Source of the DNA: Bacillus multifaciens
Lineage (GTDB): Bacteria; Bacillota; Bacilli; Bacillales; Bacillaceae_G
Direction: 5' to 3'
Assembly (NCBI RefSeq): GCF_030756675.1
Contig: NZ_JAVBXD010000042.1
Coordinates: forward strand, 1-35,933
Length of the DNA stretch: 35,933 nucleotides
In this document: positions 4,116-31,260 of the stretch, one piece after another
Position numbering within the stretch: the stretch's first letter is position 1
Layout: every line of letters begins with the position of its first letter
The notes under the pieces: generated by a model
What the model was told of the DNA's origin: nothing
The model's database searches: none
Seen by the model: the letters and a program-made list of their open reading frames with translations, nothing else
Translations under genes and position numbers: made by a program

Positions 4116-5974
4116 GGTTCTTTCCAAGGTTGGTTGAAATTCCAACAATTTGTCCATACTATTCCTATTATTTAAGTGAGGGATGGTACTGTAAAATGAA
4201 TGATGTGGTGAAATTATTAGATGAAAACCTTAGATATATCTCACACGAAATTATAGAAGACACGCTATTTATTCGGGTTGCCTCGGAGAAGCTGTCATTA
4301 ACATGTCCTTCCTGTAGTATAGTTTCGACCAAAGTTCATTCTCGATATGAAAGAACATTTCATGATTTGCCTATTCAAGGGAAGAAGGTTGTATATGTGA
4401 TCAATAACCGCAAAATGTTCTGTCATAATGCGCAATGCCATCGCAAAACATTTGCTGAACAATTCTTATTTTTACCCTATAAAGCGAAAAAATCCACTCG
4501 CTTGGAACAAGAGATCATGAAAATCGCCCAAAATGTTAGTTCGCTTGTAGCTGAAAAAATATTGAACCGTGGCATTGCGAAGGTTGGAAAAAGCACCATT
4601 TGCAATCTACTAAAAAAAAACAATCGAAATTGATAAAGCTCATGTGAAAAGAGTCTGTATCGATGATTTTGCTTTAAAAAAGAGACATACGTATGGCACG
4701 ATTATGATTGATTTAGATACACATCAAGTGGTTGACTTAATTCGTTCTAGAGACAGCGAAGAGGTGACAAGTTGGCTAAAAACTTTTCCGAATTTGGAGA
4801 TTGTTTCTAGAGATGGTTCTATCACGTATGCTCATTCCATTGCAGGGGCTCATCCGAACGCTATTCAAATAAGCGACCGCTTCCACTTGCTTCAAAATCT
4901 GACAAAGTATTGTACAGAATTTTTCAAGTCCATCATAAAAACGAACGTCAAAATCCCAGTGACACCCTCAAAGAAAGCATCTCTTATGAACGCGAATAAT
5001 TTAAACATACCATTCACAAAAAAAGTCAAAATAGCGAATGGCTTAATGGATACTGGTTATACGTTTCACCAAATAGTGAAAGCTTTACAGATGGATATCA
5101 GAACAGTGAAAAAGGTTTTATCCATGAGCTTAAGCGAACAAGAAGAATATCTGATGAGCACAATGAAAATATCTCATGAACACAAAAAGCTGCAGAAAGA
5201 AAAACAGATATGTGAAGCACGGCAGCTGTATAAACAAGGAAACTCCAAGCGAAGTATCGCACGTCAACTCGGATTAGATCGCAGAACCATCTCTAAATAT
5301 TTGAATCCAGAAACAACAGGAATGCATGCAAGCTTAGGACAAACGAGAACAAGCATGCTAGATCCCTATGCAGAAGAAATAAAACAGTACGTAACCAATA
5401 GGTATACATCTGTTCAGATTGGTGCCATTCTTCGAAAGAAAGGATACAAAGGTTCTGCCTCTACTGTGCGCCGTTATATTTCCAAACTGAAAAAATCTTT
5501 ATTTGAAGACCCTCAATTGTTACATGATATGGAGTTTGAATTCGTGAAACGAAAAGAGATTATCGCTCTTTTGTTCTGTTCGGAGAAAACAAAAATTAAA
5601 TTATCTGAAGAACAAATAAAAGAAATTTACAAGTTGCATCCGAAAATCGAATCCGTCATAAACTTGGTGAATGACTTTAGGGACATCCTGAAACAAAAAA
5701 GAAACGATGTACTGCAGGTCTGGATTGAACGAGCAACTGCGCTGAATATTCAACCGCTCAACAGCTTTATCAATGGAATAGAAAGAGACTTGACAGCTGT
5801 GAAAAATGGTATCGCTTATGAATATAACAATGGTCTAGCCGAAGGGAAAATCAATAAATTAAAGTTGGTGAAACGCACCATGTATGGCCGTTGTCTGTTT
5901 GATTTGTTAAGAAACAAAATTTTATTACTTGAATATGAGAAAGGGGGTCTTTTCAACTAACTTTGGAAAGAACC
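4116..5974 (+). mobile_element. ISL3-family insertion sequence, complete
   Basis: An element of 1859 bp bounded by 24-bp inverted repeats with two mismatches: the left end begins GGTTCTTTCCAAGGTTGG (4116-4139) and the right end is the complement of GGTTCTTTCCAAAGTTAG... (5951-5974). Both ends are flanked by the same 8 bp, CTAAATAT, so it moved here by simple transposition and has not since recombined. It carries one transposase gene split by a frameshift, with the stop codon inside the right repeat. Well-preserved ends suggest a fairly recent arrival. It sits in an intergenic region between the RND gene and the CarD gene and disrupts no recognisable gene. Confidence 0.93.
4196..5960 (+). pseudogene. 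ISL3-family transposase, frameshifted at an A9 run
   Basis: Two frames make one transposase. The first (start ATG 4196 behind GAGGGATGG) has the N-terminal zinc finger typical of ISL3 transposases (CPSC about residues 37-40 and a later CHNAQC) and runs out at 4633. The second continues from about 4622 with the catalytic domain: Asp in CIDDFALKK, Asp in SDRFHLLQNL and Glu in LAEGKINKLK are the likely DDE triad. Between the zinc finger and the DDE Glu there are HTH-like segments (for example KRSIARQLGLDRRTISKYL). The switch lies at nine A residues (4612-4620); eight would restore one frame of about 587 codons. It may be inactive, or it may be rescued by slippage on the A tract. Confidence 0.88.
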
Positions 5975-5982: not shown

Positions 5983-6226
5983 GTACACTTCTGATCGTTT
6001 AAGAATGTGCAAAATTATTCTTTCTCTTCGCTAAAGTTAGCTAATTTTGTATCCTGGAAAACTTCATCCTAGGCTTTAAAGTTAATGTTGGTCGTTAATC
6101 ATTGTACTACGTTTTTCATAACGTATATCAATTTCATAATTCGTTAGGTTTACCAGTGTTTCTACGAATGTATGTAGCAGTAATTTTCTTTCATCAAAAA
6201 AAACAAATAAAATCAAACTAAATTTA

Positions 6227-6256
6227 TTGACTCTTATAATTATTTTGTGGTATTAT
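6227..6256 (+). promoter_or_regulatory. Sigma-A-type promoter of the CarD gene
   Basis: TTGACT (6227-6232) and TATTAT (6251-6256) are separated by 18 bp, about 70 bp upstream of the coding start. It lies beyond the IS, so the insertion did not separate it from its gene. The left flank (5983-6226) shows nothing else. Confidence 0.6.
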
Positions 6257-6324
6257 ATTAAATTTTACTTATTACCTTATATGTGATAGAATTAAGAAGG
6301 TTACCATATATGGAGGTGGATTAT

Positions 6325-6801
6325 TTGTTTCAAATTGGCGATAAAATTGTTTATCCAATGCATGGAGCAGGTATCATTGAAGGCATAGAAGAAAAAGAAA
6401 TTCTAGGAGAAAAACAAAAATATTTTGTAATAAGAATACCCATTAGTAATATGGAAGTAATGATCCCCATGAAAAAAATGATCCAATCACGCATACGACT
6501 AATTGCCGATATACTCACATTAGAAAATGTACTACTGATTTTTCAATACGGCGAATCAGATGACTCACTCTCATGGAAGCAAAGATATACTCAAAACATG
6601 GAAAAAATGAAGACGGGTGAAATCCTAGAAGGCGCTGAAGTAGTACGTGACTTAATACGCAGGAATAAAGTAAGGGCTCTTAATACAAGTGAAAAGCAAA
6701 TGTTAGACAACGCACAAAAAATTTTAATTAGTGAATTGAGTTTAATTAAAGGAATTACTGAAAATCAGGCAATTGAGTTATTAAATACGAAAGTCGGCTA
6801 G
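6325..6801 (+). CDS. CarD-family transcription regulator (YdeB-like)
   Basis: CarD/CdnL proteins bind the RNA polymerase beta subunit through an N-terminal Tudor-like domain and modulate open-complex formation. The 158-residue product begins FQIGDKIVYPMHGAG, the family's hallmark, followed by the beta-rich RNAP-interaction domain (about residues 2-60). An alpha-helical C-terminal half ends in a conserved stretch, LIKGITENQ. It is very like B. subtilis YdeB in length and sequence as I recall it. The frame is open from 6283, but TTG at 6325 is preferred because GGAGGTGG lies just upstream and the family begins at this Phe-Gln-Ile. It is single-gene, with its own promoter and terminator. Confidence 0.88.
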   Translation: MFQIGDKIVYPMHGAGIIEGIEEKEILGEKQKYFVIRIPISNMEVMIPMKKMIQSRIRLIADILTLENVLLIFQYGESDDSLSWKQRYTQNMEKMKTGEILEGAEVVRDLIRRNKVRALNTSEKQMLDNAQKILISELSLIKGITENQAIELLNTKVG

Positions 6802-6864
6802 GTAAAGAACTTCTTTCAAAACCATTTTGAACTGGATTTATAATTATATAAGATACCTAAAACG

Positions 6865-6897
6865 ACAAAATAGCCTAACATCTATTTTGTTTTTTTT
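6865..6897 (+). terminator. Terminator of the CarD gene
   Basis: A 9-bp stem, ACAAAATAG (6865-6873) with CTATTTTGT (6882-6890), runs into a tract of T. It is a typical rho-independent terminator 64 bp after the stop codon. Confidence 0.85.
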
Positions 6898-7039
6898 GCT
6901 TTATGAATCTAAATATGCTATGATTAAAATTACGATTTGATTATAGGAACATTACCTTCTAAAAAAAATTCTTTTTCCTCTAAATGAATTATTCTCACCA
7001 CTTTTTATTCCCATACTTCTAAGTATACGATGAGGTTCA

Positions 7040-7233
7040 TTTATCCAATCATTGTTTTTGGATATCCCGATTCATACTGGCGCGGTCATCGGAGCCGTAA
7101 GGACGAAAGAGAGGTAGGGCTTTCGTTGTTTTGAGGTTTCAAAAACGATAATGAACATTTACTGTTCTTATCTTCCGTTTTAACGTAAAAACGATAACAA
7201 ATTTAAATATATGCTTATATTTGCTTGGTTTAT
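7040..7233. other. Structured non-coding stretch flanked by TTTAT
   Basis: This unexplained segment is more GC-rich than its surroundings around 7078-7126. Stem ACGAAAG/CTTTCGT (7103-7109, 7120-7126) has a purine-rich loop. A nested hairpin joins AAAACGATAA, GAACA, TGTTC, TTAT and CGTTTT (7142-7181). AAAACGATAA occurs twice (7142-7151 and 7187-7196). TTTAT is found at both ends (7040-7044, 7229-7233). It has no convincing reading frame. It could be a B. cereus-group bcr-type repeat or a small RNA. Sequence around it (6898-7039 and 7234-7319) shows no gene. Confidence 0.45.
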
Positions 7234-7319
7234 ATAAATAAGAGACACACCTTTAAGTTGTTTATATAAAAACAACCAGGACAGTACAATGGTTTAAAAG
7301 TGAAAAAGGATTTGAATGC

Positions 7320-7417
7320 ACGAAAGCATCAAACGGTAGTAATGTTAACAACAAATTGCATGCAACAAGTTAACAGCAACCCAATCAAAGAATGTTGTAA
7401 AACTATAAGAAAACGAA
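7320..7417 (+). repeat. Dispersed repeat, copy B
   Basis: Homologous by eye to 312-390, with the exact shared 17-mer AACTATAAGAAAACGAA at 7401-7417. It runs straight into the stem-loop that closes the vWA/tubulin operon on the other strand. That is the same arrangement as copy A, which precedes the stem-loops behind the RND gene. Confidence 0.55.
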
Positions 7418-7448
7418 AAGAACATGCAGGTAAACCTGCATGTTCTTT
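7417..7448. terminator. Terminator of the vWA/tubulin-like operon
   Basis: A perfect 14-bp stem (7417-7430 with 7435-7448) with a TAAA loop. On the minus strand it is followed by a T-rich stretch and begins right after the stop codon of the 46-codon gene, which marks the operon's end. Confidence 0.8.
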
Positions 7449-7449
7449 A

Positions 7450-7590
7450 TTATTCATCTACAGTCTCATTTTCATCTTTACTAATACTGTCATCAATAGA
7501 TTGAGTATCTTTATTCTCCATAAAAACCATTGCATGATAAATTTCTGCATACAATCCAAACACTTGGTACACACTTCCAAGAAACGGCAT
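7450..7590 (-). CDS. 46-residue protein, third gene of the vWA/tubulin-like operon
   Basis: This short frame is not recognised as a known family. It starts at ATG 7590 behind AGAGGGA (spacing about 7), 56 bp after the tubulin-like gene stops, and ends one base before the operon terminator, so it is very probably translated. The N-terminal half is hydrophobic/aromatic (MPFLGSVYQVFGLYAEIYHA) and could form an amphipathic or membrane-touching helix. The last 20 residues are strongly acidic (for example DDSISKDENETVDE). This resembles small partner or regulator peptides of cytoskeletal proteins (MciZ of FtsZ is 40 residues), but no sequence similarity is claimed. Its role is inferred only from position. 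Confidence 0.65.
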   Translation of the reverse strand: MPFLGSVYQVFGLYAEIYHAMVFMENKDTQSIDDSISKDENETVDE

Positions 7591-7646
7591 GAGAATCCCT
7601 CTTTTCAAAATAATTCATTCCAAAATTAAGGATTCCCAATCTTTTA

Positions 7647-10600
7647 TTAAACATTCGTTTCTATATCTTCCTCTTCTATTTGGATATTAAGAAGATGTAA
7701 CCATTTCTTATATGGTGCACTGTTCGGATCTACAAATTCTTTTGCGTATGAACGATTCCATAGTTGTTTTACAAATAAAGCTGCTTCTTTTTTAGCTGCT
7801 GATTCTGCACCAGTCCCGTAATAAGCTTTAAAATACTGTTCAATTTCATCCACAAGTAATCGCAATAACTCATCAGAAGTTTCTTCTAACGTTGGGTCAT
7901 ATTTCGCTTCCTTATCATACATCAAGATAATATCTAAAATATTATGAATATGTTCTTTTCGAAGCCATCTTATATCTTGAGCGCCTAATACAAATGGATG
8001 TGTATATAAATGTCCTCCATGTTGCAATGCTTTTTCCTGTTCTTCTTCAAAACGAGAAATGATATTCTCATATATAAATGGGTTATGAAGCAAGGCACGA
8101 TGCAATTTATACCCTTCGTTTGTTACATTTTTCCCCATTGATTGAATAAGAGAACTTCGGCCCACTCCGTTATATTGGTAAACGAACTGACCGTCTACCG
8201 CAGCAAGGCTAATCCAGCGATATATATATGCATATAATAAAGCACGATTACATTTCTCATAATCTAACTTCGTTTGTGTTGCATTTAAATCAGGCATAAA
8301 CGCTGGCAAATGCCAATATTTATCGAGATGAGGCGTTAAATTTGATTTACGAATGTTTAATTTATTTACGCGGCGATAATACGCTTGAAAGTAGTCTCCC
8401 TTTTCGTTTACATAACCATTTACAAGATGTCCGGACGACAATTTCGGAAAATCTTGCAGCGATAACCCGTAATGCGCACGATAACATACAATTTCATACG
8501 GCGAAAAAGCTTTATCAACGGTTTCTTTTTCTTGAAACATTTCTTGGAGCGCTTCTTCATTTAATTCTTGATGAACAAATGGATGAATACCCCAATATTG
8601 CAATTCACGGTGATGCGGCACTTTCGGTATAAATGGACTTGCAAGGTGTAATAAATCTTCTATTTTTTCATTAACATATTCTGTCATATCACGTCTTTGA
8701 ATCGTAGCTTCTTTTCGAAGCGCTTCAATAATATTTAATTCTAACTTATCTCTGTACCGTTCTCGCAGTTCCTTTTCACAATACGTTAAAATGTGTTTTC
8801 GGTAAAAATCTTCTACCTTTTGAGATTGCCCTTCTTCTGCCCCTGCTTCCCGGCAATACTCTCGATATAAACTCATATAAATTTCAGCAGATATCTCTTT
8901 TGGCAACACACCATTATTTACATGGTGATGAATATCGTTCCATATTTCTTCCTGCATTCGTTCATCTGCTAATACGTATACATTTGTTGGATTTGTTTTC
9001 CCCTCAAATTCTTTACTACGTTTTTGAATGTCTAATAATAAGTTTTCACGGGTTTCTTGTAAATTATCAAAGAAACGCTCCCAATATTGAATCATTTTAT
9101 CTACAGCTTGATATAAAGATTGATACACAAGTTCTAATAACATTTCTTTTCGGTACTCATTTAACTTGTGTACATATTGGGTGGCGATATCTTGAAATTC
9201 TTTTCGAAACATACGCTGTTCATTATGAAATACTTTTCCTATCCACCCTTGCTGCTGTGCGAGTTCAACACGGCGAACAGCTGTTACCGTTCCTTCAATA
9301 TTACTCACATTAAACTTTTTATCATAATTTTGAATGAGATTCCGCTTTTGCTCATTATTTTCATGCAAACGATTCATTTTCTCAGTTAACAATTTACGAA
9401 TTTCATATAACATATACCTTGCCGCAACAGGGTGAACGGGAGCCGTTTTTTTCAAAAACCATGTATTTAACTGATAGGACTGTCCTTCGGAACCACTTGG
9501 CGTAAAACGATCTGCTTCAATTATGTCATAAACTAATGTTGTGACATGCTCATGTACTCGGCTTGGGATTGCATACGCATATAACCGCACCCCATGATCA
9601 ACTCGTGCGACTTCCCCTTTCATTTGCTCCGCAATTTTCAACTTTGCAGCCGAAATTTTACACTCACGTTGCAAGCGATTTAGCTCTTCATCCTTTTGCA
9701 CCGTTCGCTGCACATAACTTTCTACCGAATCGAGAAACAATTTTGCCTTTGATATACCAATTTTTCCGCCCTCTGCCCCTTCACGTGCTTCATAATACAT
9801 TTGTTTATAAAACACATGCGCTTGTTCTGGACGAGTCGCTAAATGTTCTAAATCCTCTAAGAAACTTTTCCCTCGCTCTGGTTTTTCACGTTGCATACCG
9901 CGGCGAACATCTTGCTCATACCGTGTTTTCTTCTCTAAAAAGAGTCGATCTAAATGAAGCCATGATTCATCTAGCCCTTGCACCGCCCATTTCAAAGCAC
10001 AATAACGAAGAACATTTTCATACGGATAAATAAGTTTCGCGACACCCGCTCCGCAGTATCGCGCTTTACCATTTGAATCCGCAAGTTGCTGAATTTGATT
10101 ATCTTCCTGTGCAAAATGACTCGTTGACATTGGACTAAACAGTTGTAAATAAATCGTATTTGCCATTTGTTCCATATAGTCAGACAAACTATTTAAATGA
10201 TGTCCATGTAAATTTTCATAGTCATATAAAAAGCAATAATTATATGGTAAGTGATGTTGCATAATTGTATGATTTGTACGACCATCTTCATCCACTTGAT
10301 CAGGTCTGTATTCCAACTCAATTGTAACGCCCCCGCGGCGCGATAACTCTCCTGTAGATCCTAATGTAATAGCGTGTAATTCTTTTAACGATGCATAGCC
10401 GTTTGCTTGCACTGCTTCAAATTCTTTCCCGCTTATTGTGCGCGTCTTTACGAGAGCGTCAGGAAGCAAGAAAGCGCCGCGAATTAAAATGTTGTGATGT
10501 TGTAACTTTTTCCGAAGCATTTCTCGTAAATAAAGAGCGATTTGCAAAAACATCCCCGAACCTGTACCACCAGCTAATGATGTAATAATAATGACCCGTA

Positions 10601-11009
10601 CTCCGTACTCTGTTTTATCACTAGTGACCGGGAAAATTTTCTCGATTTCCTGCCAAAACGATGTTAATTTATCTTCTTTCATTGCTGCGCGAAGTGCTAA
10701 ACGAGAAATAACTCGAAGCTGACCTGCACCTTCTGTTAATGGTTTATCTAGTATAGTTGGATCAATTGGAAACCAGTCTGGGATTGTTGGATCTTCTGCT
10801 ATATATTCACGCGGTGTTTTACTAGAACTTGTTTGCGTCACAAATTTACGAATATGTTGAAAATGACTTAACGTATTAATATCTGTATCAAAGACGTGCA
10901 TCGCTACTTTTTTGCGCCGTTCTAGTGGAAGTTTTCGATAAATATCATGCGTAATCGTGCTACCAATTCCTCCGAGTCCAATTAAAATTGTCGGCACTTG
11001 AAAATCCAT
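7647..11009 (-). CDS. Large tubulin/FtsZ-superfamily protein (Tubulin_2-like)
   Basis: A cytoplasmic protein of 1120 residues, about three times the size of FtsZ. It opens with a Rossmann-type strand and glycine loop (TILIGLGGIGS, residues 6-16). At about 147-152 it carries GGTGSG after a hydrophobic strand, the tubulin/FtsZ nucleotide-binding signature. Residues up to about 340 fit a divergent GTPase core. The remainder is largely helical and charged with probable coiled coils (about 420-480 and 550-680), and it ends in a mixed domain. There is no signal peptide or membrane helix. I chose ATG 11009 because AGGAAGGTGG lies 5 bases upstream; GTG 11018 is an alternative. It follows the vWA gene by 17 bp, so the two are co-transcribed. 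FtsZ-like proteins paired with vWA proteins have been proposed to remodel membranes; the function here is unproven. It is not plasmid TubZ: no TubR gene lies nearby. Confidence 0.82.
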   Translation of the reverse strand: MDFQVPTILIGLGGIGSTITHDIYRKLPLERRKKVAMHVFDTDINTLSHFQHIRKFVTQTSSSKTPREYIAEDPTIPDWFPIDPTILDKPLTEGAGQLRVISRLALRAAMKEDKLTSFWQEIEKIFPVTSDKTEYGVRVIIITSLAGGTGSGMFLQIALYLREMLRKKLQHHNILIRGAFLLPDALVKTRTISGKEFEAVQANGYASLKELHAITLGSTGELSRRGGVTIELEYRPDQVDEDGRTNHTIMQHHLPYNYCFLYDYENLHGHHLNSLSDYMEQMANTIYLQLFSPMSTSHFAQEDNQIQQLADSNGKARYCGAGVAKLIYPYENVLRYCALKWAVQGLDESWLHLDRLFLEKKTRYEQDVRRGMQREKPERGKSFLEDLEHLATRPEQAHVFYKQMYYEAREGAEGGKIGISKAKLFLDSVESYVQRTVQKDEELNRLQRECKISAAKLKIAEQMKGEVARVDHGVRLYAYAIPSRVHEHVTTLVYDIIEADRFTPSGSEGQSYQLNTWFLKKTAPVHPVAARYMLYEIRKLLTEKMNRLHENNEQKRNLIQNYDKKFNVSNIEGTVTAVRRVELAQQQGWIGKVFHNEQRMFRKEFQDIATQYVHKLNEYRKEMLLELVYQSLYQAVDKMIQYWERFFDNLQETRENLLLDIQKRSKEFEGKTNPTNVYVLADERMQEEIWNDIHHHVNNGVLPKEISAEIYMSLYREYCREAGAEEGQSQKVEDFYRKHILTYCEKELRERYRDKLELNIIEALRKEATIQRRDMTEYVNEKIEDLLHLASPFIPKVPHHRELQYWGIHPFVHQELNEEALQEMFQEKETVDKAFSPYEIVCYRAHYGLSLQDFPKLSSGHLVNGYVNEKGDYFQAYYRRVNKLNIRKSNLTPHLDKYWHLPAFMPDLNATQTKLDYEKCNRALLYAYIYRWISLAAVDGQFVYQYNGVGRSSLIQSMGKNVTNEGYKLHRALLHNPFIYENIISRFEEEQEKALQHGGHLYTHPFVLGAQDIRWLRKEHIHNILDIILMYDKEAKYDPTLEETSDELLRLLVDEIEQYFKAYYGTGAESAAKKEAALFVKQLWNRSYAKEFVDPNSAPYKKWLHLLNIQIEEEDIETNV

Positions 11010-11026
11010 GTGAACCACCTTCCTAT

Positions 11027-13123
11027 TTATTCACATTCATACTTATATAACTCTTTTCCATATCCACGATCAATAACAACCATTTCGTTCGGATATAACG
11101 TTTTATGCTCACGTCCTGCTTCTTCATCTGTTAAAAACATACCATCAATCACCATACCTGGTACTTGCGAATCTTTCGTTACAAATATAGATTTTGAAGC
11201 TTTTTTTGCAACAAACGTAACGGACTGTACGGTTTTCCGTTCTGCCCGAAATGGAATACCAAAATAATGATTCCACCATTTTGTCCGCAGTGGTTCTGGT
11301 TCAGATTTGTATAACCAATCTTCCGCAATCGATTGGTCCCATTCATAATATATAAGCGCCTTCCTATGAAAACGCGGACGAACCACCCATCCAATAACAA
11401 GAGTTACAACTATGAGTAAGATGATACTAAATGGTAAAACGAACTGAAAAATGATCGCATAACGCTCAAAAAAAGATACATCGATAATAGAAAGTAAAAA
11501 TTGTTTACTCACTTTTTGTGATTGTGAATCTCGTAATGTGATGGTAGCTTCTACGGTGCCGGTATCTGTAAAGTTAAATGTGTTGGAGTAATGAGGACGA
11601 GGATAGACGTACAGTTGATTTCTATGTTGCTTGATCTCATAGTTGATAGATTTATGAAATGTAACAGTAGCTGTTTTCAGTAATTCCTTTACTTCTGCTT
11701 CTGACATTGCTTCATTATTCAATAGCGGTTGTATGATAAATGGTGCGCTATGCTTTAAATTTGTTACTTTTTCTGTATAATTCGTTGTCACAACTTGTAA
11801 TGATAGTTTTGGTTTTGGAACAGATTGAATATAAAATTCTTTCGTTTGACGATAAAATCCTTTAATATTCATGTGCACATTTCCGCGTACCAATTCTTTT
11901 CCTACATTTGTTTCATAGTAGAAAGCTTTCCGCTCTCCATTCCATTTCATCGCATACATTTGACCGTTTATTTCTATTTGAGCGGTAAAATATGAAGCAT
12001 CTACTGGTATATTTGTTGGTTTTGCTTCAATAACTGCTGTTTGACCTTCGTAAAATTGTTCTGTTGTCTTTTTCTGCTCTTTTTCATAAGTAGAAATCGT
12101 ATAATCTAATGCTGGTTCGACAAGCACTTTCATATTTTCCTTTGAAACTACTTGATTAATTTCTACTATATATGCACCGGGTTCGATTACAGCACTATTT
12201 TTAGACATAATTTGTGTAATACCACCATATAGCCCCATTCCTGCTGGTGCCTGAATTGAAAATTTTGATTGTAGCTGAAGTGACCCTTTTATATTTTGAA
12301 TACGATACGGCACTTTCTGAGAAGATTGATCAACAAGCGTAATTCGTTTTAATGGAAATGGTGTTGTAATTTCGATTTTGTTTCCTACTATATTTGTTTT
12401 CACCGCCTCTTCTACTGATGAAAATGGATCACGATTCGCAATAAATGCAGCCGCTTGGTTCACACTGTGAATAACACCATTTTCTCCGCTTGTAGGTAGC
12501 ACGATTCCATTCGTTTGTTGTTTCCAAATCTCTTTAAAGATGTTCATTTGTGTTTGCTCTTGCGTTCCTAAATTTTCTTCCATCGTAATTAATACCGCAT
12601 GTAAAGAAACTTTTTTTGCTTCCATTTCTTTTTTAAACTTACTTAACGTTTCGGAAATTCGTTTTTTCTCATTTTCATCTTGCTTTTCTAGCTCATTAAA
12701 AGCGCCATCTGTTAGAACAATAAGCCAAAATTCTCGATTGGCATTCACCTGAACCTCCCTCTTCATCGATTGAATTGCCGTTTCTACCGATTGAAAAGGA
12801 GTATTCGCTTGCTCATTCCACGTTTGAATCTTGTCAATCTCTCCTTGTCGCTTACTATTCCCCAAAGAAACCGATATCTCCTCAGCTGGATGACTCATTG
12901 GTACATAAGAAAACGTATCCTTTTCATCTAATAATGCAATCAAACTTTGCAGTGCATAATTGGCATATTTCCATCGATCATTATTGCGCATACTTCCAGA
13001 ATCATCATACACAAGTGAAACAACGCGCTGCCTTCCCTCTTCTCCTTTCGCCAAACTAGAAAAAGGATTCATACATACAAGCAATAAAAACAAAATGGAT
13101 GTGGCTATGATTCGAGTATACAT
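11027..13123 (-). CDS. Membrane-anchored von Willebrand A domain protein
   Basis: A 698-residue protein, first gene of the operon. A signal peptide (residues 1-25, cleavage near SLAKG) is followed by a vWA domain (about 33-235) with a complete MIDAS set: DDSGS at 40-44, Thr 108 in NTPF and Asp 139 in VLTDG. These residues bind a divalent metal and a ligand. Several beta-rich extracellular segments follow (about 240-550). One transmembrane helix spans about 555-581, then a cytoplasmic tail of about 117 residues (KALIYYEWDQ... to the end). The metal site therefore faces outward and the tail can meet the tubulin-like partner inside. The start at ATG 13123 has AAAGGTGG about 13 bases upstream. 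It resembles no named Bacillus protein that I recall. Confidence 0.85.
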   Translation of the reverse strand: MYTRIIATSILFLLLVCMNPFSSLAKGEEGRQRVVSLVYDDSGSMRNNDRWKYANYALQSLIALLDEKDTFSYVPMSHPAEEISVSLGNSKRQGEIDKIQTWNEQANTPFQSVETAIQSMKREVQVNANREFWLIVLTDGAFNELEKQDENEKKRISETLSKFKKEMEAKKVSLHAVLITMEENLGTQEQTQMNIFKEIWKQQTNGIVLPTSGENGVIHSVNQAAAFIANRDPFSSVEEAVKTNIVGNKIEITTPFPLKRITLVDQSSQKVPYRIQNIKGSLQLQSKFSIQAPAGMGLYGGITQIMSKNSAVIEPGAYIVEINQVVSKENMKVLVEPALDYTISTYEKEQKKTTEQFYEGQTAVIEAKPTNIPVDASYFTAQIEINGQMYAMKWNGERKAFYYETNVGKELVRGNVHMNIKGFYRQTKEFYIQSVPKPKLSLQVVTTNYTEKVTNLKHSAPFIIQPLLNNEAMSEAEVKELLKTATVTFHKSINYEIKQHRNQLYVYPRPHYSNTFNFTDTGTVEATITLRDSQSQKVSKQFLLSIIDVSFFERYAIIFQFVLPFSIILLIVVTLVIGWVVRPRFHRKALIYYEWDQSIAEDWLYKSEPEPLRTKWWNHYFGIPFRAERKTVQSVTFVAKKASKSIFVTKDSQVPGMVIDGMFLTDEEAGREHKTLYPNEMVVIDRGYGKELYKYECE

Positions 13124-13572
13124 GTTGAAGCTTCGCCACCTTTGTAGACAAATTCCTATGTTTAAACTTATGAGAAGAAATACAAGATATGACTTGTATT
13201 TCGAAAAACAAATAATATCATAATATTATTATGTAAACTTATTTTTAAGAAGACGTTTGTTACTTTTTCTAATCTCAATAACAAACTTCCTCTACTCCAT
13301 TTACAATTCAAATAATTATTTTCATCTCTGTATCACAATGAAAAACTGACATTTATGGTTTATAGTTTATAAGGGAAAGTAATAACTAAAGATCAGTATA
13401 AAGTTTAAATTAGTTTACATAATAAAATTATTAAAACTTATATTTATAACATCAGTAATTGCATTCCATTTTCCAACATTATACCTTCCAATTTTCATAC
13501 CGAGCTCGCGCAACCGTACTCGTTTCATTCTCTCACCTTTTTCTGAATTTTCTTTCTTTTAATTATAACAAA
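13124..13572. other. Leader region of the vWA operon, with an inverted repeat
   Basis: A very AT-rich region upstream of the vWA gene. A perfect 13-bp inverted repeat, AGTTTACATAATA (13412-13424) and its complement (13227-13239), brackets about 170 bp. TTTACA in either arm could serve as a -35 box, but no clean promoter of standard spacing was found. No gene is seen. Confidence 0.4.
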
Positions 13573-13603
13573 AATAAGAGTGCCATCTATAAGCACTCTT
13601 ATT
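13573..13603 (-). terminator. Terminator of the 111-codon gene
   Basis: An 11-bp stem, AATAAGAGTGC (13573-13583) with its complement (13593-13603), has a T run on the minus strand. The stop codon at 13599 lies in the stem. It separates this gene from the vWA operon. Confidence 0.85.
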
Positions 13604-13934
13604 GTTTCACATATACTTCTACAACTGGATTTTCTTTTCGATCAGCATGGAGGCGAATATTACTTTCTTTCGTATCGTAAATAGTTGCTAATAATAAGAT
13701 GGTTAATAGGTTAGGAATTTTGCTATCTGTTCCATATTTTCGTTCAAGTGCTTCTTTATACTCAAACGCAAGATCTCCCTGTATATATGTATACACTTCA
13801 AATCCATCCTTTAAATCACAAACAATACTATCAATAATATCCGCTCCAACTTGACGCTCCATTTCTTTTCGCAGTGCATCTATTAATTCCTCCCATGATA
13901 CTTCATACGTTTGAAACGCATCTGAACGATTCAT
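13599..13934 (-). CDS. Hypothetical protein, 111 residues
   Basis: Not recognised. The frame is open to 14021, but ATG 13934 (MNRSDAFQTYEV) is preferred because AAAAGGAGAG sits just upstream and the extra N-terminus is low-quality Lys/Arg/Ser sequence. The protein is acidic, with a helical first half (WEELIDALRKEMERQ), a central beta-like part (DGFEVYTYIQ) and a hydrophobic segment NLLTILLLATIYD (about 78-90) that is probably a buried helix, since it contains Asp. There is no signal peptide and no Cys motif. It has its own terminator, so it is likely monocistronic. Confidence 0.7.
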   Translation of the reverse strand: MNRSDAFQTYEVSWEELIDALRKEMERQVGADIIDSIVCDLKDGFEVYTYIQGDLAFEYKEALERKYGTDSKIPNLLTILLLATIYDTKESNIRLHADRKENPVVEVYVKQ

Positions 13935-14109
13935 TTTTTCTCTCCTTTTTATTTTACCTAGCAGGCAATCGGATTTTTCATTACTAGAAAACATTCTTTC
14001 CCTATCCTTCCCGTTTTTCATCGTAATTATGAACTTGTAGACAAACGTACAAGCCGCTCTTGTCCCTTTCTCATATCGTAATATTGGAAAGAGAAAGGGG
14101 AGAAATTTT

Positions 14110-14421
14110 ATGAGTTCTCGTCAACATTATTACACATGTCGACGCTATCACGGACGAGTCGTACGTATTGAAGACTATGACGGCAATATTCACCTCGGAA
14201 GAATTGTCGATGTAACGGATAAATCAGTATGGATTGAAGCGGTTCATCAAAAGCGATTTGACTATGGATTTGGCTATTCTGACTGTGGCTGTGATGTTTG
14301 CGGTGGTTTAAGTGAATGCGATAATTGTGGGTTTGGATTTGGACGCGGTGGATTTGGTGCTGTTGAACTTGGTTTTGGATTTATTTTCGGTATTGCATTA
14401 GCTGCTTTATTTTTCATATAA
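14110..14421 (+). CDS. Small Cys/Gly/Phe-rich protein with hydrophobic C-terminus
   Basis: A hypothetical protein of 103 residues. It starts at ATG 14110 behind AAAGGGGAG. Residues 12-50 look like a small beta-barrel (GRVVRIEDYDGNIHLGRIVDV), a pattern seen in several Bacillus spore or surface proteins. A cluster of five Cys follows (CGCDVCGGLSECDNCG, about 59-74), then a Gly/Phe stretch and a hydrophobic end (FGFIFGIALAALFFI). The Cys pattern could bind metal or cross-link, and the end could touch membrane or coat. CATATCGTA at 14072-14080 resembles the -10 of sporulation sigma factors, but no matching -35 is seen, so sporulation control is only a guess. Confidence 0.72.
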   Translation: MSSRQHYYTCRRYHGRVVRIEDYDGNIHLGRIVDVTDKSVWIEAVHQKRFDYGFGYSDCGCDVCGGLSECDNCGFGFGRGGFGAVELGFGFIFGIALAALFFI

Positions 14422-14427
14422 AGAAAG

Positions 14428-14449
14428 GCCAACGTATCGTTGGCTTTTT
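14428..14449. terminator. Terminator between convergent genes
   Basis: GCCAACG (14428-14434) pairs with CGTTGGC (14438-14444) and runs into TTTTT. It ends the Cys-rich gene and sits at the stop of the methyltransferase read from the other strand. Confidence 0.8.
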
Positions 14450-15168
14450 CATTTTTGACAAATAAAAATTCGATGTCCTAATCTATGCTTATATTGCTGT
14501 GAAATATGTTCATGCAAAGTCCACGTCTCATACAAATCTTGTGAAATAATATCCGATATATCCCACTCTGGTTGTTCTACATGTGAAGAGATTGTTTCGG
14601 CAATCGTTCCGCCTCCAAGCACACGCACTGATGTAAATTGCGCTTCTTGAAAGAGTGAAATCCATTCCTGTTCTGTTAATAGCTGTTCCATTCCATATAA
14701 GGTTACAATCTGTTCTTCCACATGTACTGGTAGGTGTTGCTCAGTTATCATTTCAATAACAAGCAGCGCCCCGCCGCGTTGTAAGACACGATAACATTCA
14801 TTTATCGCCTTCCTCTTATTTGTAAAAGCAAGAACAGACTCCCCTAATACAATATGAAATACTTCATCGTGAAACGGTAGTGCTTCTACACTTCCTTTTA
14901 TAAGTTCAATATTTACTCCATCTTGATTCCATCTCTTTCTTGCTTTTTGAAGCATCGTTTCATTCAATTCAACTGCACTTACCACTGAGCCATATTGTTT
15001 CACAATATAAGAGGCTGTTCGGCCCGTTCCGCACCCAATTTCCAATAACTTTGTATATGGTCCTAATGAAAGCTGTGCTAATAACTGCTTTGTTAATGTA
15101 AAGCCTCCCGGATGTGCACTTCCAATACCAAATGCTGCAAGGAAATCTAAATAAGAATATTGTTTCAT
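14449..15168 (-). CDS. Class I SAM-dependent methyltransferase
   Basis: A 239-residue cytoplasmic enzyme with the seven-strand Rossmann fold. Motif I is LLEIGCGTGRT (residues 41-51), the acidic end of strand 2 is Glu 67 (SAVELNE), a motif II-like segment is VEALPFHDEVFHIVLGE, and there is a late-strand block VLQRGGALLVIEMI. It belongs to the broad UbiE/small-molecule methyltransferase group, so the acceptor substrate cannot be told. AAGGAGATACTT precedes ATG 15168. It is transcribed alone, convergent with the Cys-rich gene. Confidence 0.85.
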   Translation of the reverse strand: MKQYSYLDFLAAFGIGSAHPGGFTLTKQLLAQLSLGPYTKLLEIGCGTGRTASYIVKQYGSVVSAVELNETMLQKARKRWNQDGVNIELIKGSVEALPFHDEVFHIVLGESVLAFTNKRKAINECYRVLQRGGALLVIEMITEQHLPVHVEEQIVTLYGMEQLLTEQEWISLFQEAQFTSVRVLGGGTIAETISSHVEQPEWDISDIISQDLYETWTLHEHISQQYKHRLGHRIFICQK

Positions 15169-15374
15169 AAGTATCTCCTTCTATCTTATACTTAACGATG
15201 GAATGAAACAGATAACACATAGAAAAAACAAATTGATGAAAGTTTCACTTTATTGTAATACTGCATATGTATTCACCACACTTCAAAATGTGCACAATGA
15301 AAAATGGTTAAGAACTTGTTGTTTCAAAACCAGCCATGCCACTATCTTAACGGAGTACAACCATTTATACATGA

Positions 15375-15421
15375 AAAAAGTGATAGCTTTCTCATGTATA
15401 TCGAGAAAGCTATCACTTTTT
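15375..15421 (-). terminator. Terminator of the leftmost OppA-type gene
   Basis: A perfect 19-bp stem (15375-15393 with 15403-15421) with AAAAAG/CTTTTT ends, 56 bp past the stop codon at 15478. It lies in an extra segment of about 148 bp that the other three copies lack. The rest of 15169-15374 holds a diverged copy of the array's 3' flank (CAAAATGTGCAC at 15284-15295) and no gene. Confidence 0.85.
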
Positions 15422-15477
15422 ATACTATGAGGATTTTTCCACAGACTACTGTATTATATCCTCTTTTTAACTGATTC

Positions 15478-17187
15478 TTATTTTTTGTTGTCTTTTTCAG
15501 TGACATATGCCCATTTATAGCTGAAATCGCCGCCAAAAGTATGAGAAGCGATGTCATGTACGTACGGACGTACTAAGAAAGAGTTACCACGTTGATATAT
15601 TGGCGCAATTGCTGCGTCTTTAAGTAAGATTTTTTCAGCTTTTCCAAGTTGTTCCCAACGAGTTTTTACGTCAGTTAGTAATTCTTTTTTACCTTTTTTC
15701 ACGATTTCATCATACTCTTTATTTGAATAACCCATTTGGTTATGAGAGTTTGTTGTTTCGAACATATCAATAAATGTCATTGGATCTGGATAGTCCGGTC
15801 CCCAACCAGCGTAAGAGAAATCATAATCTTGCTCTGTTTCTAACTTTAATTTTTGTTTAAACGGTTGGTTTTTCAAGTTAACTTTTAAACCTGGTAAGTT
15901 TTTCTCTAATTGTTCTTTTAAGTACTCACCGATTTTCTTCGCATTATCAGTATCATAGTTTAAAAGTTCAAGTGTAACTTCGTCTTTACCTAATTCTTTC
16001 TTCGCTTCTTCCCAAAGCTTTTTCGCTTCTTTTGCATCAAACGCTACGTCTTTAACAGAACCGCCGAATGAATCACGGAAATCTTTTTTATCTGGACCAG
16101 TTGAAAGCGTTGCTGGTACAAGGAAATCCGCTGGCTTAGAACCATCATTTAAGATGACGTTCGCTAATGCCTTTTTATCAAATCCTTTTGCAATTGCTTG
16201 ACGAAGCTTTGTATTTTTCAGTGGTGTATCTTGACCGCCACGTTTTTGATTTAAGCGCAGGAAGAATGTTGATGGATCTAACTCTGTTTTGAACTCATCT
16301 TTGTTTCCTTTATATTTATCAACATATTCTGCTGCTAATCCAACACGGTCAGCTTGGCCACTTTCATATAAGTTAACGCGAGTAGATAGCTCTTTAACTA
16401 CGCTAACGTTAATTTCTTCTAGCTTCACAGTTTTCTTATCCCAATATTGATCATTTTTCTTATATTTCCATCCTTGTTCATGCTTCCATTCAGCTAAAGA
16501 GAATGGTCCGTTGTACACTAATGTGTCAGCTTCTAAGCCGTATTTATCACCTTTTTCTTTTACAACTTTTTCATTTACTGGATAGAATGAAGCAAATGAT
16601 GTTAATTGAATAAAATATGGAATTGGATTTTCTAATTCCACTTCTAATGTATAATCATCAACCGCTTTTGCTCCTAACGAGTCAGCCGGTGCTTTTCCTT
16701 CATTAATTGCCTTTGCATTTTTCACATCATACATAATGAATGCATATTCAGCAGCCGTTTTTGGATCTAACAGACGTTGCCATGCAAAAACGAAATCCTT
16801 TGCTGTTACAGGGTCGCCGTTTGACCATTTTGCATCTTTACGAAGTTTAAATGTATATTTTTTACCATCATCGCTCTTATTATATGATTCTGCAACACCT
16901 GGAGTTGGCTTATTGTCTTTATCAAGGCGATATAAACCTTCCATTACGTTGTTTAACACAATAAATGAAACTTGATCCGTTGATTTAGAAGAATCCATAG
17001 ACGGAATTTCTTGCGTTTCTAATAAATTCAATACTTGCTTGTCTGCTAACTTACCCTCTGTTTTTTTGTCACCATTTTTCGAATCTGTACTTGCTTTGTT
17101 GTCCCCTGCCCCAGAACATGCCGTTAGTGCCACACTCATCGCTAATACTGGTGCTACTACAGCTGTGATTTTTTTCATCTTTTTCAT
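15478..17187 (-). CDS. oppA: OppA-type peptide-binding lipoprotein, copy 1
   Basis: A solute-binding protein of peptide ABC importers (SBP_bac_5), 569 residues. The signal peptide ends in the lipobox LTAC with Cys 24, so the protein is lipid-anchored outside the membrane. A Lys/Ser linker (25-46) precedes the two-lobed binding fold. Residues 106-154 (YTFKLRKDAKWSNGD to AFIMYD) are identical in all four copies. It groups with copy 4 in the middle (DKKTVKLEEIN, MFETTNSHNQ), but its C-terminus (RPYVHDIASHTFGG) is unlike the other three. GGGAGGG lies 6 bases before the ATG. No permease or ATPase gene lies nearby, so it must share an Opp transporter encoded elsewhere. In the B. cereus group, Opp import also carries signalling peptides such as PapR. 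Confidence 0.88.
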   Translation of the reverse strand: MKKMKKITAVVAPVLAMSVALTACSGAGDNKASTDSKNGDKKTEGKLADKQVLNLLETQEIPSMDSSKSTDQVSFIVLNNVMEGLYRLDKDNKPTPGVAESYNKSDDGKKYTFKLRKDAKWSNGDPVTAKDFVFAWQRLLDPKTAAEYAFIMYDVKNAKAINEGKAPADSLGAKAVDDYTLEVELENPIPYFIQLTSFASFYPVNEKVVKEKGDKYGLEADTLVYNGPFSLAEWKHEQGWKYKKNDQYWDKKTVKLEEINVSVVKELSTRVNLYESGQADRVGLAAEYVDKYKGNKDEFKTELDPSTFFLRLNQKRGGQDTPLKNTKLRQAIAKGFDKKALANVILNDGSKPADFLVPATLSTGPDKKDFRDSFGGSVKDVAFDAKEAKKLWEEAKKELGKDEVTLELLNYDTDNAKKIGEYLKEQLEKNLPGLKVNLKNQPFKQKLKLETEQDYDFSYAGWGPDYPDPMTFIDMFETTNSHNQMGYSNKEYDEIVKKGKKELLTDVKTRWEQLGKAEKILLKDAAIAPIYQRGNSFLVRPYVHDIASHTFGGDFSYKWAYVTEKDNKK

Positions 17188-17287
17188 TTTGTACCCTCCC
17201 TAATTATTATGCATGATACTAACTATGAGGAATCTTCTGATAACTTTATATTTCTATATAGTTATCAGAAAATTTCTATTAATTAAT

Positions 17288-17315
17288 ATTCTACTGTTTT
17301 TTTTGATTTTGTAAA
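17288..17315 (-). promoter_or_regulatory. Promoter of copy 1, with leader hairpin
   Basis: TTTACA (17310-17315) and TAGAAT (17288-17293) with a 16-bp spacer. The transcript would have a leader of about 95 nt. In it, an 11-bp inverted repeat TTCTGATAACT/AGTTATCAGAA (17235-17245, 17260-17270) is perfect in this copy and decayed in the others. Confidence 0.65.
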
Positions 17316-17444
17316 GTGCTATTATTAAAAAAATCAAAAATTTATTTTTTTACACTAATATTTATAAACATTCTATGAAATTAATTGAAACTTCCATTTC
17401 GTGTAGTACGGCTTATGTATTCATCATTCTTCAAAATGTGCACA

Positions 17445-17479
17445 GAGAAAAGAGGATACGATACGCATCCTCTTTTCTC
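17445..17479 (-). terminator. Terminator of copy 2
   Basis: A 13-bp stem, GAGAAAAGAGGAT (17445-17457) with its complement (17467-17479), starts 5 bp after the stop codon at 17484. Confidence 0.8.
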
Positions 17480-17483
17480 ATAA

Positions 17484-19187
17484 TTATTTGCCTTCTTTTT
17501 CAGTAATATATGCCCATTTGTAACTGTATTGGCAACCGACGTTGTGCTTATAAATATTGTGTACAGTAGGACGTTGTAAGAATGCTCTTCCTGGTTGATA
17601 CATCGGTACGATAGCTGTTTCATCCTCAAGTAGGATTTTTTCAGCTTTTGCCATTTCTCCCCAACGTTTTTTCGGATCTGTTAGCAATTCACCTTGAGAT
17701 TTCTTAACAATCTCATCATATTTCGCATTTGAATAACTCATTTCGTTTTGTGGATTTCCTGTTTGGAACATATCTAAGAATGTCATTGGATCCGCATAAT
17801 CTGGGGTCCAACCTGCATAAGACATATCATAATCTTGCGCTGTTTCTAATTTTAATTTTTGCTTGAACGGCTGAAGTTTAATATTAATTTTTAAACCTGG
17901 TAAATTTTTCTCAAGTTGCTCTTTTAAGTATTCACCAATTTTCTTTGCACTGTCTGTATCATAGTTTAAAAACTCAATTGTCACTTCTTCTTTACCCATT
18001 TCTTTTTTCGCTTCTTCCCAAACCTGCTTTGCTTTCTTTACATCCGTTTTGATGCCTGTAGATTTATACGTTTCATGGTAATCCTTTCCATCTGGTCCTG
18101 CAGCAAACTTTTCTGGAATAAGGGCATCTACTGGTTTAGAACCATCATTTAAGATAACATTTGCCAATGCTTTTTTATCAAATGCCATTGCAATTGCTTC
18201 ACGAACTTTCTTATTCTTTAATGCTGTATCTTGACCGTTACGTTTTTGATTTAAACGTAAGAAGTACGTTGACGGTTCTAACAGCGTTCCAAATTCATCT
18301 TTATTTGCTTTATATTTATCAACATATTCAGCTGTTAAACCAACGCGGTCAAGTTGGCCGCTTTCATATAAGTTCACACGAGTAGATTGTTCTTTTACAA
18401 CGCTCCAATTGATTTCATCTAACTTGACATTTGCTTTATCCCAGTACTGATCGTTTTTCTGTACTTTCCAGCCTTGTTCATGCTTCCATTCTGTCATTTT
18501 AAACGGTCCATTATAAACCATCTTATCAGCTTCTAAACCGTATTTATCTCCATGTTCTTTTACAACTTTTTCATTTAGCGGTAAAAAAGATGTAAATGCT
18601 GTTAAACCAATGAAATACGGAACAGGGTTATCTAATTCTACCTCTAATGTGTAATCATCTACTGCTTTTACACCTAAAGAGTCAACCGATGATTTTCCTT
18701 CGTTAATCGCTTTTCCATTTTTTATATCATACATAATGAATGCATATTCAGCAGCCGTTTTTGGATCTAACAGACGTTGCCATGCAAATACAAAGTCTTT
18801 TGCCGTTACAGGATCTCCATTTGACCATTTTGCATCTTTACGAAGTTTAAATGTATACTTTTTACCATCATCGCTCTTTTTATAAGATTCTGCGATACCT
18901 GGAATAGGCTTATTCTCTTTATCAAGACGATATAAACCTTCCATCGTATTCCCTAAGATAAGAGAAGAAACAGTATCTGTTGATTTTGAAACATCCATTG
19001 AAGGAATTTCTTGTGCTTCTACTAAGTTTAGCACTTGTTTTGCCGCTAACTTACCTTCTGTTTGTTTATTTCCATTTTTCGGATCTGTACTTGCTTTTTT
19101 GTCCCCTTCCCCAGAACATGCTGTTAGCGCCACGCTCATCGCTAATACTGGTGCTACTACAGCTATGATTTTTTTCATCTTTTTCAT
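17484..19187 (-). CDS. oppA: OppA-type peptide-binding lipoprotein, copy 2
   Basis: 567 residues, with the same lipoprotein signal (Cys 24), linker and two-lobed SBP_bac_5 fold as its neighbours. It pairs closely with copy 3: DKMVYNGPFKMTEWKHEQGW, DKANVKLDEINWSVVKEQ, FQTGNPQNEM and the end RPTVHNIYKHNVG are shared. These replace the versions in copies 1 and 4. The differences fall in the lobes that line the ligand pocket, so peptide preference probably differs between the two types. Uniquely for this copy, a Cys replaces Ser/Gly near the C-terminus (HNVGCQ). It has its own promoter and terminator. Confidence 0.88.
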   Translation of the reverse strand: MKKMKKIIAVVAPVLAMSVALTACSGEGDKKASTDPKNGNKQTEGKLAAKQVLNLVEAQEIPSMDVSKSTDTVSSLILGNTMEGLYRLDKENKPIPGIAESYKKSDDGKKYTFKLRKDAKWSNGDPVTAKDFVFAWQRLLDPKTAAEYAFIMYDIKNGKAINEGKSSVDSLGVKAVDDYTLEVELDNPVPYFIGLTAFTSFLPLNEKVVKEHGDKYGLEADKMVYNGPFKMTEWKHEQGWKVQKNDQYWDKANVKLDEINWSVVKEQSTRVNLYESGQLDRVGLTAEYVDKYKANKDEFGTLLEPSTYFLRLNQKRNGQDTALKNKKVREAIAMAFDKKALANVILNDGSKPVDALIPEKFAAGPDGKDYHETYKSTGIKTDVKKAKQVWEEAKKEMGKEEVTIEFLNYDTDSAKKIGEYLKEQLEKNLPGLKINIKLQPFKQKLKLETAQDYDMSYAGWTPDYADPMTFLDMFQTGNPQNEMSYSNAKYDEIVKKSQGELLTDPKKRWGEMAKAEKILLEDETAIVPMYQPGRAFLQRPTVHNIYKHNVGCQYSYKWAYITEKEGK

Positions 19188-19287
19188 TTTGTACCCTCCC
19201 TAATTGTTATGTACGATACTAACTATGAGGAATCTCCTAACAACTTTATGTTTCTGTATAATTGTCAGAAAATTTCTATTAATCAAT

Positions 19288-19315
19288 ATTTTACTAGTTT
19301 TCCCTATTTTGTAAA
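19288..19315 (-). promoter_or_regulatory. Promoter of copy 2
   Basis: TTTACA (19310-19315), 16-bp spacer, TAAAAT (19288-19293). This is the same placement relative to the start codon as in copy 1. The leader inverted repeat is degraded here (CCTAACAACT against AATTGTCAGAA). Confidence 0.65.
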
Positions 19316-19446
19316 GTTATATTATTAAAAAATCAGAAAATTATTTTAATACATTGATATTAATATTCATTCTATGAAATTAATTAAAACTTCCATTTCT
19401 TGTAGTACGGCTTATATATTCATCATTCTTCAAAATGTGCACAAAG

Positions 19447-19476
19447 AAAAGAGGATACGATATCGCACCCTCTTTT
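19447..19476 (-). terminator. Terminator of copy 3
   Basis: AAAAGAGG (19447-19454) pairs with CCTCTTTT (19469-19476), 8 bp past the stop at 19484. It is a shortened version of the hairpins behind copies 2 and 4. Confidence 0.7.
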
Positions 19477-19483
19477 TAAATGA

Positions 19484-21187: not shown

Positions 21188-21286
21188 TTTGTACCCTCCC
21201 TAATATTATGTACGATACTAACCATGAGAAATTTTTTGATAACTTTATATTTCTATAAAATAGTCAGAAAATTTCTACTAGTTAAT

Positions 21287-21314
21287 ATTCTACCACCATT
21301 CTCTGTTTTGTAAA
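21287..21314 (-). promoter_or_regulatory. Promoter of copy 3
   Basis: TTTACA (21309-21314), 16-bp spacer, TAGAAT (21287-21292). The leader repeat is partly kept. Confidence 0.65.
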
Positions 21315-21440
21315 GTTGTATTATCGAAAAAATCAAAAAATTATATTATTACAGTAATGTTTATAATTATTCTACTAAATAAACCAAAACTTCCATTTCG
21401 TGTATGTGTATGCATCCATTACATATCAAAATGTGCACAA

Positions 21441-21474
21441 TGAAAAGAGGATGCGATATCGCATCCTCTTTTCA
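21441..21474 (-). terminator. Terminator of copy 4, perfect palindrome
   Basis: A 34-bp perfect palindrome starting TGAAAAGAGGATGCGAT, ending 6 bp before the stop at 21480. It is the most complete version of the array's terminator. Confidence 0.8.
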
Positions 21475-21479
21475 AATGA

Positions 21480-31029: not shown

Positions 31030-31052
31030 TACTTCATCTCCTTTTTGGCAAT

Positions 31053-31077
31053 AAAAAAGGAGCATATTCTATGCTCC
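31053..31077 (-). terminator. Terminator between tail genes and lysis genes
   Basis: GGAGCAT/ATGCTCC stem with a 5-base loop and six T on the minus strand. It lies between the 54-codon gene and the holin, with no evident promoter after it, so lysis genes probably depend on read-through. Confidence 0.75.
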
Positions 31078-31095
31078 TGTACCTTACGGTTGTAT

Positions 31096-31260
31096 TTATT
31101 TTTGTTTTGGTTTTAACTTCTCACTTTCTTCTCTTAATTTATGATTTTCTGCTTCTAGTTCGATTACGCGAGCCAAATAAATGTTTTTCTCTTGGGTGGC
31201 TGCATTTAGCTGTTCTTCCACCACTTTTGCGTACATTTCTGCGTTTGCTGTTATTTTCAT
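31096..31260 (-). CDS. 54-residue coiled-coil phage protein overlapping the tail gene
   Basis: Starts at ATG 31260 behind AAGGTGAT and reads a different frame from the tail gene, which it overlaps by 122 bp. The product is a continuous charged helix (AEMYAKVVEEQLNAATQEKN, VIELEAENHKLREESEKLK) with heptad spacing. It looks like a genuine short coiled coil, whereas the tail protein's sequence over the same bases is Arg/Ser-rich and unstructured. Small proteins at this place in related prophages are often chaperones or holin accessories. Here the function is unknown. Confidence 0.68.
   Translation of the reverse strand: MKITANAEMYAKVVEEQLNAATQEKNIYLARVIELEAENHKLREESEKLKPKQK

Follow-up and report, generated by a model that had tools for sequence, protein, structure and literature searches.

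The window, by which we mean the whole 35.9-kb stretch of DNA analysed, carries a pair of adjacent minus-strand genes, one for a membrane protein with a vWA domain and one for a tubulin-like protein, followed by a small ORF and a terminator-like stem-loop.

11027-13123, minus strand: vWA-domain membrane protein, 698 aa (ORF; PF13519, E 8.8e-7; model pLDDT 86.8)
7647-11018, minus strand: FtsZl1/Tubulin_2 protein, 1123 aa (PF13809, E 2.2e-75; model pLDDT 82.8, pTM 0.70)
7450-7590, minus strand: 46-aa ORF, probably a truncated remnant, its first 19 residues resembling the start of a ~100-aa gene at the same place in relatives
7417-7448, minus strand: intrinsic terminator-like stem-loop with a 14-pair stem and a T-rich tail

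The leftward order and the gaps of 17 and 56 bp given in the first-pass annotation are reproduced by the ORF calls when ATG starts are taken. The tubulin-like gene can start at a GTG at 11018 (1123 aa) or at an ATG at 11009 (1120 aa), and the small ORF at an ATG at 7590 (46 aa) or a TTG at 7608 (52 aa). The ORF caller takes the longest ORF without a ribosome-site model; a few starts are too long, and in GC-rich loci (e.g., L001, L055) it yields some wrong-strand ORFs. The single terminator described at the operon end corresponds to the stem-loop at 7448-7417, whose stem is the longest among the region's terminator-like sites, although such sites are not rare (6 found vs. 4.1 expected). Promoter-like sites in the operon region are not above chance (23 found vs. 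27.9 expected), and no plasmid DNA match to this region was found. An Rfam scan of window positions 6000-16000 returned nothing but a BsrC small RNA (7052-7139, minus strand, 83.1 bits), downstream of and outside the operon.

The small third gene had been put forward as a possible undescribed component of the system, and a survey of gene neighbourhoods speaks against this: the ORF exists and is not a conserved operon member. It has no match in Pfam, NCBIfam or PADLOC. A ~100-aa ORF lies directly 3' of the tubulin-like gene in E. antri (L010), in its close relative G008 and in Bacillus sp. 165 (L015), beginning MPFTDG... in L010 and L015. Among the first 19 residues of the window ORF, 10 are identical to this longer ORF, and beyond them the two differ; on the strength of these residues and its position, the window ORF is probably a truncated remnant of the ~100-aa gene; it could also be a separate short gene. 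The ~100-aa family is present in 7 of the 19 genomes of the window's family, 4 of which lack the FtsZl1 gene, and is absent from two pair-carrying genomes (G001, G002); it is therefore no part of the system.

Elsewhere in the window, four tandem minus-strand ORFs of 567-569 aa (15478-23186), the first and last of which match SBP_bac_5, are probably copies of an oligopeptide-binding protein. Genes for a prophage tail protein, a holin and a GH25 lysozyme-like protein (29543-35536, minus strand) probably mark the end of a prophage, and parts of an ISL3-type transposase, probably interrupted, lie across two adjacent ORFs at 4130-5960.

Predicted architecture of the two proteins

The vWA protein is predicted to consist of an extracellular portion, one membrane-spanning helix and a cytoplasmic tail, all encoded on the minus strand.

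13049-13123, minus strand: predicted signal peptide (residues 1-25; inferred from sequence, with a model helix at 2-18 and then a low-confidence stretch)
12431-13033, minus strand: predicted extracellular vWA domain (residues 31-231)
12992-13006, minus strand: MIDAS DxSxS motif (D40, S42, S44)
11483-12400, minus strand: beta-rich stalk (residues 242-547; strands in the model; 36-49% identity to five relatives)
11381-11458, minus strand: predicted single transmembrane helix (residues 556-581; judged from the model helix and the hydrophobic sequence)
11030-11380, minus strand: predicted cytoplasmic beta-rich tail, 117 residues (model; 51-66% identity to five relatives)

The VWA_2 match lies over the curated Pfam cut-off, and a vWA fold is present in the predicted model. 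The full MIDAS set first noted in this product is there (D40, S42, S44, T108, D139), and these five residues are identical in all 44 aligned homologues among the matches listed. The single helix and the tail of about 117 residues are likewise present in the prediction, and an outside-to-inside relay through the protein is plausible. Compared with four Ectobacillus-type genomes, identity is 60-63% in the vWA domain, 42-49% in the stalk and 61-66% in the tail; compared with Bacillus sp. 165 it is 53, 36 and 51%, respectively. The tail is therefore more conserved than the stalk, and no more so than the vWA domain. Because the tail is conserved like the vWA domain where the GTPase is the only other known component, contact between tail and GTPase is hinted at; this is the best available hint, and not proof, that the two meet.

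The second protein matches Tubulin_2 over residues 11-348 with 254.6 bits against a cut-off of 27, placing it in FtsZl1, a family whose link to vWA proteins was drawn by Makarova and Koonin (2010; PMC2875224); the first-pass annotation had mentioned such a link for FtsZ-like proteins. According to the available text of that paper, a vWA gene lies in the same operon for the majority of the family. The parts assigned to the window protein are as follows.

9960-11000, minus strand: predicted GTPase domain and first part of the tubulin C-terminal domain (~residues 7-353; boundary inferred from strand order)
10554-10571, minus strand: GGTGSG nucleotide loop (residues 150-155)
10101-10103, minus strand: D306, identical in 43 of 43 aligned proteins among the matches listed
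8610-9959, minus strand: predicted helical/coiled-coil insert splitting the tubulin fold (~residues 354-803; model secondary structure and aligned ranges)
8463-8609, minus strand: predicted rest of the tubulin C-terminal domain (strands within 804-852; model alignment to FtsZ)
7650-8456, minus strand: predicted C-terminal, mainly helical domain (residues 855-1123; model)

The GGTGSG motif, correctly noted from the first, is identical in 43 of 43 aligned proteins among the matches listed. D306 aligns by hand with what we take to be the first Asp of the FtsZ T7 loop. Structure prediction, which had been named as the check for a tubulin fold, indicates a complete tubulin/FtsZ fold split by a helical insert of ~450 residues, and the model contains the two domains by which the FtsZ/tubulin superfamily is recognised. 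The alignment with FtsZ chains whose last residue is 311-317 extends to model residue 851-853. This match is to a predicted model with a pTM of 0.70, and the Foldseek hits are weak (best E 3.3e-4). Long helices at 463-501, 530-563 and 594-668 and a helical end at 969-1122 are seen in the model, the coiled-coil character of the middle being judged from these helices. Neither the two large window proteins nor the FtsZl1, vWA and C2 profiles found a convincing relative in sequence searches of solved structures.

In its family match, GTP loop, helical/coiled-coil middle, helical C-terminus and vWA neighbour, the protein resembles FtsZl1 as described in 2010. That account, in its available text, aligned nothing past H5 (PMC2875224), whereas the C-terminal tubulin domain is located here, by the model, in two parts divided by the insert. 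The protein also differs from CetZ, FtsZ and tubulin themselves: its PF00091 score of 24.6 bits is below the cut-off of 33, and it has the ~450-residue insert and an extra C-terminal domain.

Conservation of the pair and the larger cassette

Loci were collected by the tubulin-like protein alone, from the best 80 of 82 relatives together with plasmid and phage records and nine regions from genomes of the same order, giving 97 sources (window, L001-L087, L110-L118). With a single window protein as query, no relative was found in genome and viral contigs; the genome scan was redone with a three-row alignment, and the locus list depends on two short patterns. Against the clade profile, 56 FtsZl1 genes score at E <= 1e-150 in the 97 sources among the matches listed, and more distant members are not counted. 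At all 54 of these clade genes that have at least 600 bp of DNA before them, among the matches listed, one of the two ORFs called next upstream is a homologous vWA gene in the same orientation; a small called ORF intervenes in L019 and L050, and a few of the vWA genes are partial. Conservation as neighbours, on which the first-pass annotation had staked its proposal, is thus found in relatives. The pairing is not due to chance, and the pair is a fixed unit.

The FtsZl1 gene is uncommon. It matches in 15 of 397 sampled genomes of the order (12 full-length at 42-81% identity, 3 weak) and occurs in 5 of 19 genomes of the window's family. The window protein is 79-82% identical to those of three named Ectobacillus species, with which the protein tree also groups it; for another 7.7-kb stretch of the window, the best-scoring DNA matches among the 19 genomes of the family are 70-75% identical.

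In most relatives the pair belongs to a larger cassette. Within the next four or five same-strand ORFs of the 42 loci with at least 4.5 kb downstream, a gene of family C2 is found in 36 and one of family C3 or C35 in 35, among the matches listed; the vWA, C3, C35 and C2 profiles were made from the same loci that were later counted. A comparison by hhalign relates C3 to C35 (probability 98%, E 2.8e-14). Most of these proteins are ~650-730 aa long, and inspection by eye suggests a coiled coil and two TM segments. In Psychrobacter (L031), C2 is present and C3 absent by profile. C2 proteins are mostly ~1280-1450 aa long. They carry TM segments near the N-terminus, as judged by eye, and towards the C-terminus an HExxH stretch, which occurs in the last 250 residues of 30 of the 38 C2 proteins longer than 900 aa among the matches listed. 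The C-terminal part of C2 resembles the putative metallopeptidase DUF6782, though weakly (22.5 bits against a cut-off of 27). A reading of C2 as helicase-like, made by eye from the sequence, was dropped, as no family supports it.

Some loci depart from this layout. A Turicibacter MAG contig (L048) holds two tandem cassettes, the end of one and the start of the next. In L056, L076 and L079 a second, different tubulin-like gene stands in tandem with the first or nearby, and these loci may represent the two-tubulin systems of Kaur et al. (2020). In three Alphaproteobacteria, a C2 relative (probability 98.9%, E 1.7e-17) lies 3' of FtsZl1, and a vWA protein follows; a ~700-aa gene there compares with C3 at a probability of 10%. 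On the three Thermaceae plasmids found (L003, L005, L007), BrxL comes after a distant set of vWA, Tubulin_2 and unknown genes, separated from it in L003 by an IS transposase, and such sets lie near methyltransferase, helicase or HEPN genes; they are possibly a BREX-like system with a tubulin-like protein. The Thermaceae vWA protein aligns with the clade vWA in the vWA part only (probability 57%), and the third gene shows no relation to C3 in profile comparison. An Azospirillum FtsZl1 gene (L006) is flanked by caspase-family and OmpA-family genes.

The window belongs to a group with two genes. Six loci lack C2: the window, the three named Ectobacillus species, G008 and Bacillus sp. 165. By profile search, C2 and C35 are absent from 5 of 5 two-gene whole genomes, with 2 of 2 controls positive; a single-sequence search gave 0 of 4 two-gene genomes vs. 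3 of 3 controls, and the called ORFs of the window's own 35.9 kb contain no match to C2 or C35. All four genes are present at each of the 9 remaining Bacillales loci of the clade among the matches listed, three of the four being in pieces or short in L115. In a quick tree with some long branches flagged, the two-gene group forms one clade (support 100) nested in a 15-row Bacillales clade (99), the other nine members of which have four genes. The simplest reading is that two genes were lost in the ancestor of the two-gene group, and these results suggest that the window pair is the reduced core of a larger cassette.

The two genes that remain are still under constraint in the group that lacks C35 and C2. 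Between the window and four Ectobacillus-type genomes, the tubulin-like gene has a pN of 0.12-0.14 and a pS of 0.80-0.86, and the vWA gene evolves faster (pN 0.29-0.32). Since silent sites are saturated elsewhere, dN/dS (0.02 and 0.10) comes from one close pair only, E. antri and G008. Two genes 1-2 kb upstream of the window pair recur 3-8 kb upstream of the pair in L009 and L010, by which the pair looks vertically inherited in the window lineage; they are not in the available DNA around L008, L015 and L116.

Possible roles at the cell envelope

The reading ranked first, which we put at somewhat less than an even chance, is that the two genes form a receptor-scaffold module at the envelope. 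The vWA domain would bind a wall or surface ligand through its metal site, and the tail of the protein would recruit or gate the GTPase, which alone among the partners is shared by the two-gene and four-gene forms. Assembling beneath the membrane in a GTP-dependent way, the GTPase could then organise the envelope locally or report its state. The domains, the pairing at 54 of 54 loci among the matches listed, the invariance of both motifs, the retention of the pair without C35 and C2, the low pN of the tubulin-like gene, a tail better conserved than the stalk and the single clade formed by the two-gene group support such a module, which may be likened to an integrin-type link from the outside to a tubulin-like polymer, although it is not an integrin. 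We think it improbable that the pair is a bacterial counterpart of the integrin-cytoskeleton link, in which an extracellular metal-dependent I/vWA domain, one TM helix, a small tail domain and a tubulin-family GTPase split by a long coiled-coil arm would act without the two further membrane proteins that its relatives use.

Counting against a receptor-scaffold role are the CARF-HEPN (Csm6-like) genes (TIGR02710, E 1.8e-34) of three relatives, which point to a role in conflict. They occur in 3 of 14 cassette genomes and adjoin the cassette in all 3, twice after C2 and once before the vWA gene.

L011, 12121-13599: CARF-HEPN gene
L012, 19515-20972: CARF-HEPN gene
L110, 4062-5561: CARF-HEPN gene

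In a conflict or defence system, ranked second and in our view doubtful, the cassette would sense attack on the envelope and trigger exchangeable effectors, and the window would retain only the sensing core. With the Csm1 model, no Csm1/Cas10 gene was found above the cut-off in these three genomes; in one of them, G007, a fragment scores 22.1 bits where the cut-off is 170. The same reading draws on a TPR protein after C2 in Psychrobacter, with marginal NACHT/NPHP3 matches below the cut-off, on the distant FtsZl1 genes near BrxL on Thermaceae plasmids and on the conflict roles proposed, in the available text of Kaur et al. (2020; PMC7159879), for GTPase systems with tubulin and vWA genes. However, PADLOC 2.0.0 gave no match for the three window proteins at E 0.1, a marginal one for C3 (E 0.0055), none for C2 and none at E 1e-4 for five other genes after or beside the cassette. 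The flanks of L013 are ordinary (TetR, prephenate dehydrogenase) and are shared by its close kin L112 and L113, and the window lineage has apparent vertical inheritance and no adjacent effector. On the side of a conflict role, among the matches listed, the gene after C2 (35 loci) encodes an FtsK/SpoIIIE-type ATPase in 8, a family named from L044 only (E 9e-18), and a marginal-transglutaminase protein in 6, named from L018 only; this transglutaminase-like gene of Clostridia scores 73 against an NCBIfam cut-off of 450 bits, and its Pfam match is also below the cut-off.

The proposal of Makarova and Koonin (2010; PMC2875224), by which a tubulin-like polymer held at the membrane by the vWA protein would remodel that membrane or form vesicles, is ranked third and seems unlikely. 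TM segments seen by eye in the vWA, C3/C35 and C2 proteins would fit it, as would the report, in the available text, that disrupting the Synechocystis Tubulin_2 gene sll0445 and its two neighbours impairs phototaxis (PMC9880817). However, the 2010 proposal, in its available text, was drawn from gene context only, and the Synechocystis neighbours differ from those here, such that the phototaxis phenotype may not carry over.

That the two-gene form is a decaying remnant without function is very improbable: two of the four genes are missing, the small downstream ORF looks truncated and the broken genes of L115 show that decay does occur, but each of the 6 two-gene loci has both reading frames open, the 5 of them that were aligned (G008 being outside the alignments) have intact motifs, and there is strong protein-sequence constraint at saturated silent sites.

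Relation to known systems and significance

The pair shares with the GAP1-N2 systems, as far as the available text of Kaur et al. (2020) describes them, a tubulin-domain protein and an extracellular-vWA protein in Firmicutes, and differs in having one tubulin and one vWA gene. Their marker GAP1-M (PF20014) is absent from 5 of 5 two-gene genomes and was found in 2 of the 18 genomes searched, G403 and G055, the latter having it and the cassette on separate contigs; no GTPase-family match was seen among the 16 window ORFs scanned with Pfam. Synechocystis sll0445-0447 likewise includes a Tubulin_2 protein, but its partners are FtsA- and DivIC-domain proteins, and the available text names no vWA protein (PMC9880817). 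Unlike the 2010 account of FtsZl1, the present analysis defines the neighbours C3/C35 and C2, though these are possibly among its families A1-A2 and B1-B9, and a two-gene form. Searches by title and the start of the abstract found, among the matches listed, no paper on the four-gene cassette, the split fold or the two-gene form, C3 and C2 being nameless.

Few branches of the tubulin superfamily are as poorly understood as FtsZl1, for which the one mutant phenotype met in literature searches is the cyanobacterial motility defect, as given in the available text (PMC9880817). The natural two-gene version, which occurs in named and cultured Ectobacillus strains, is the smallest form seen here for asking whether a surface receptor controls a tubulin-like polymer, and the split-fold model and the four-gene cassette provide concrete, checkable targets.
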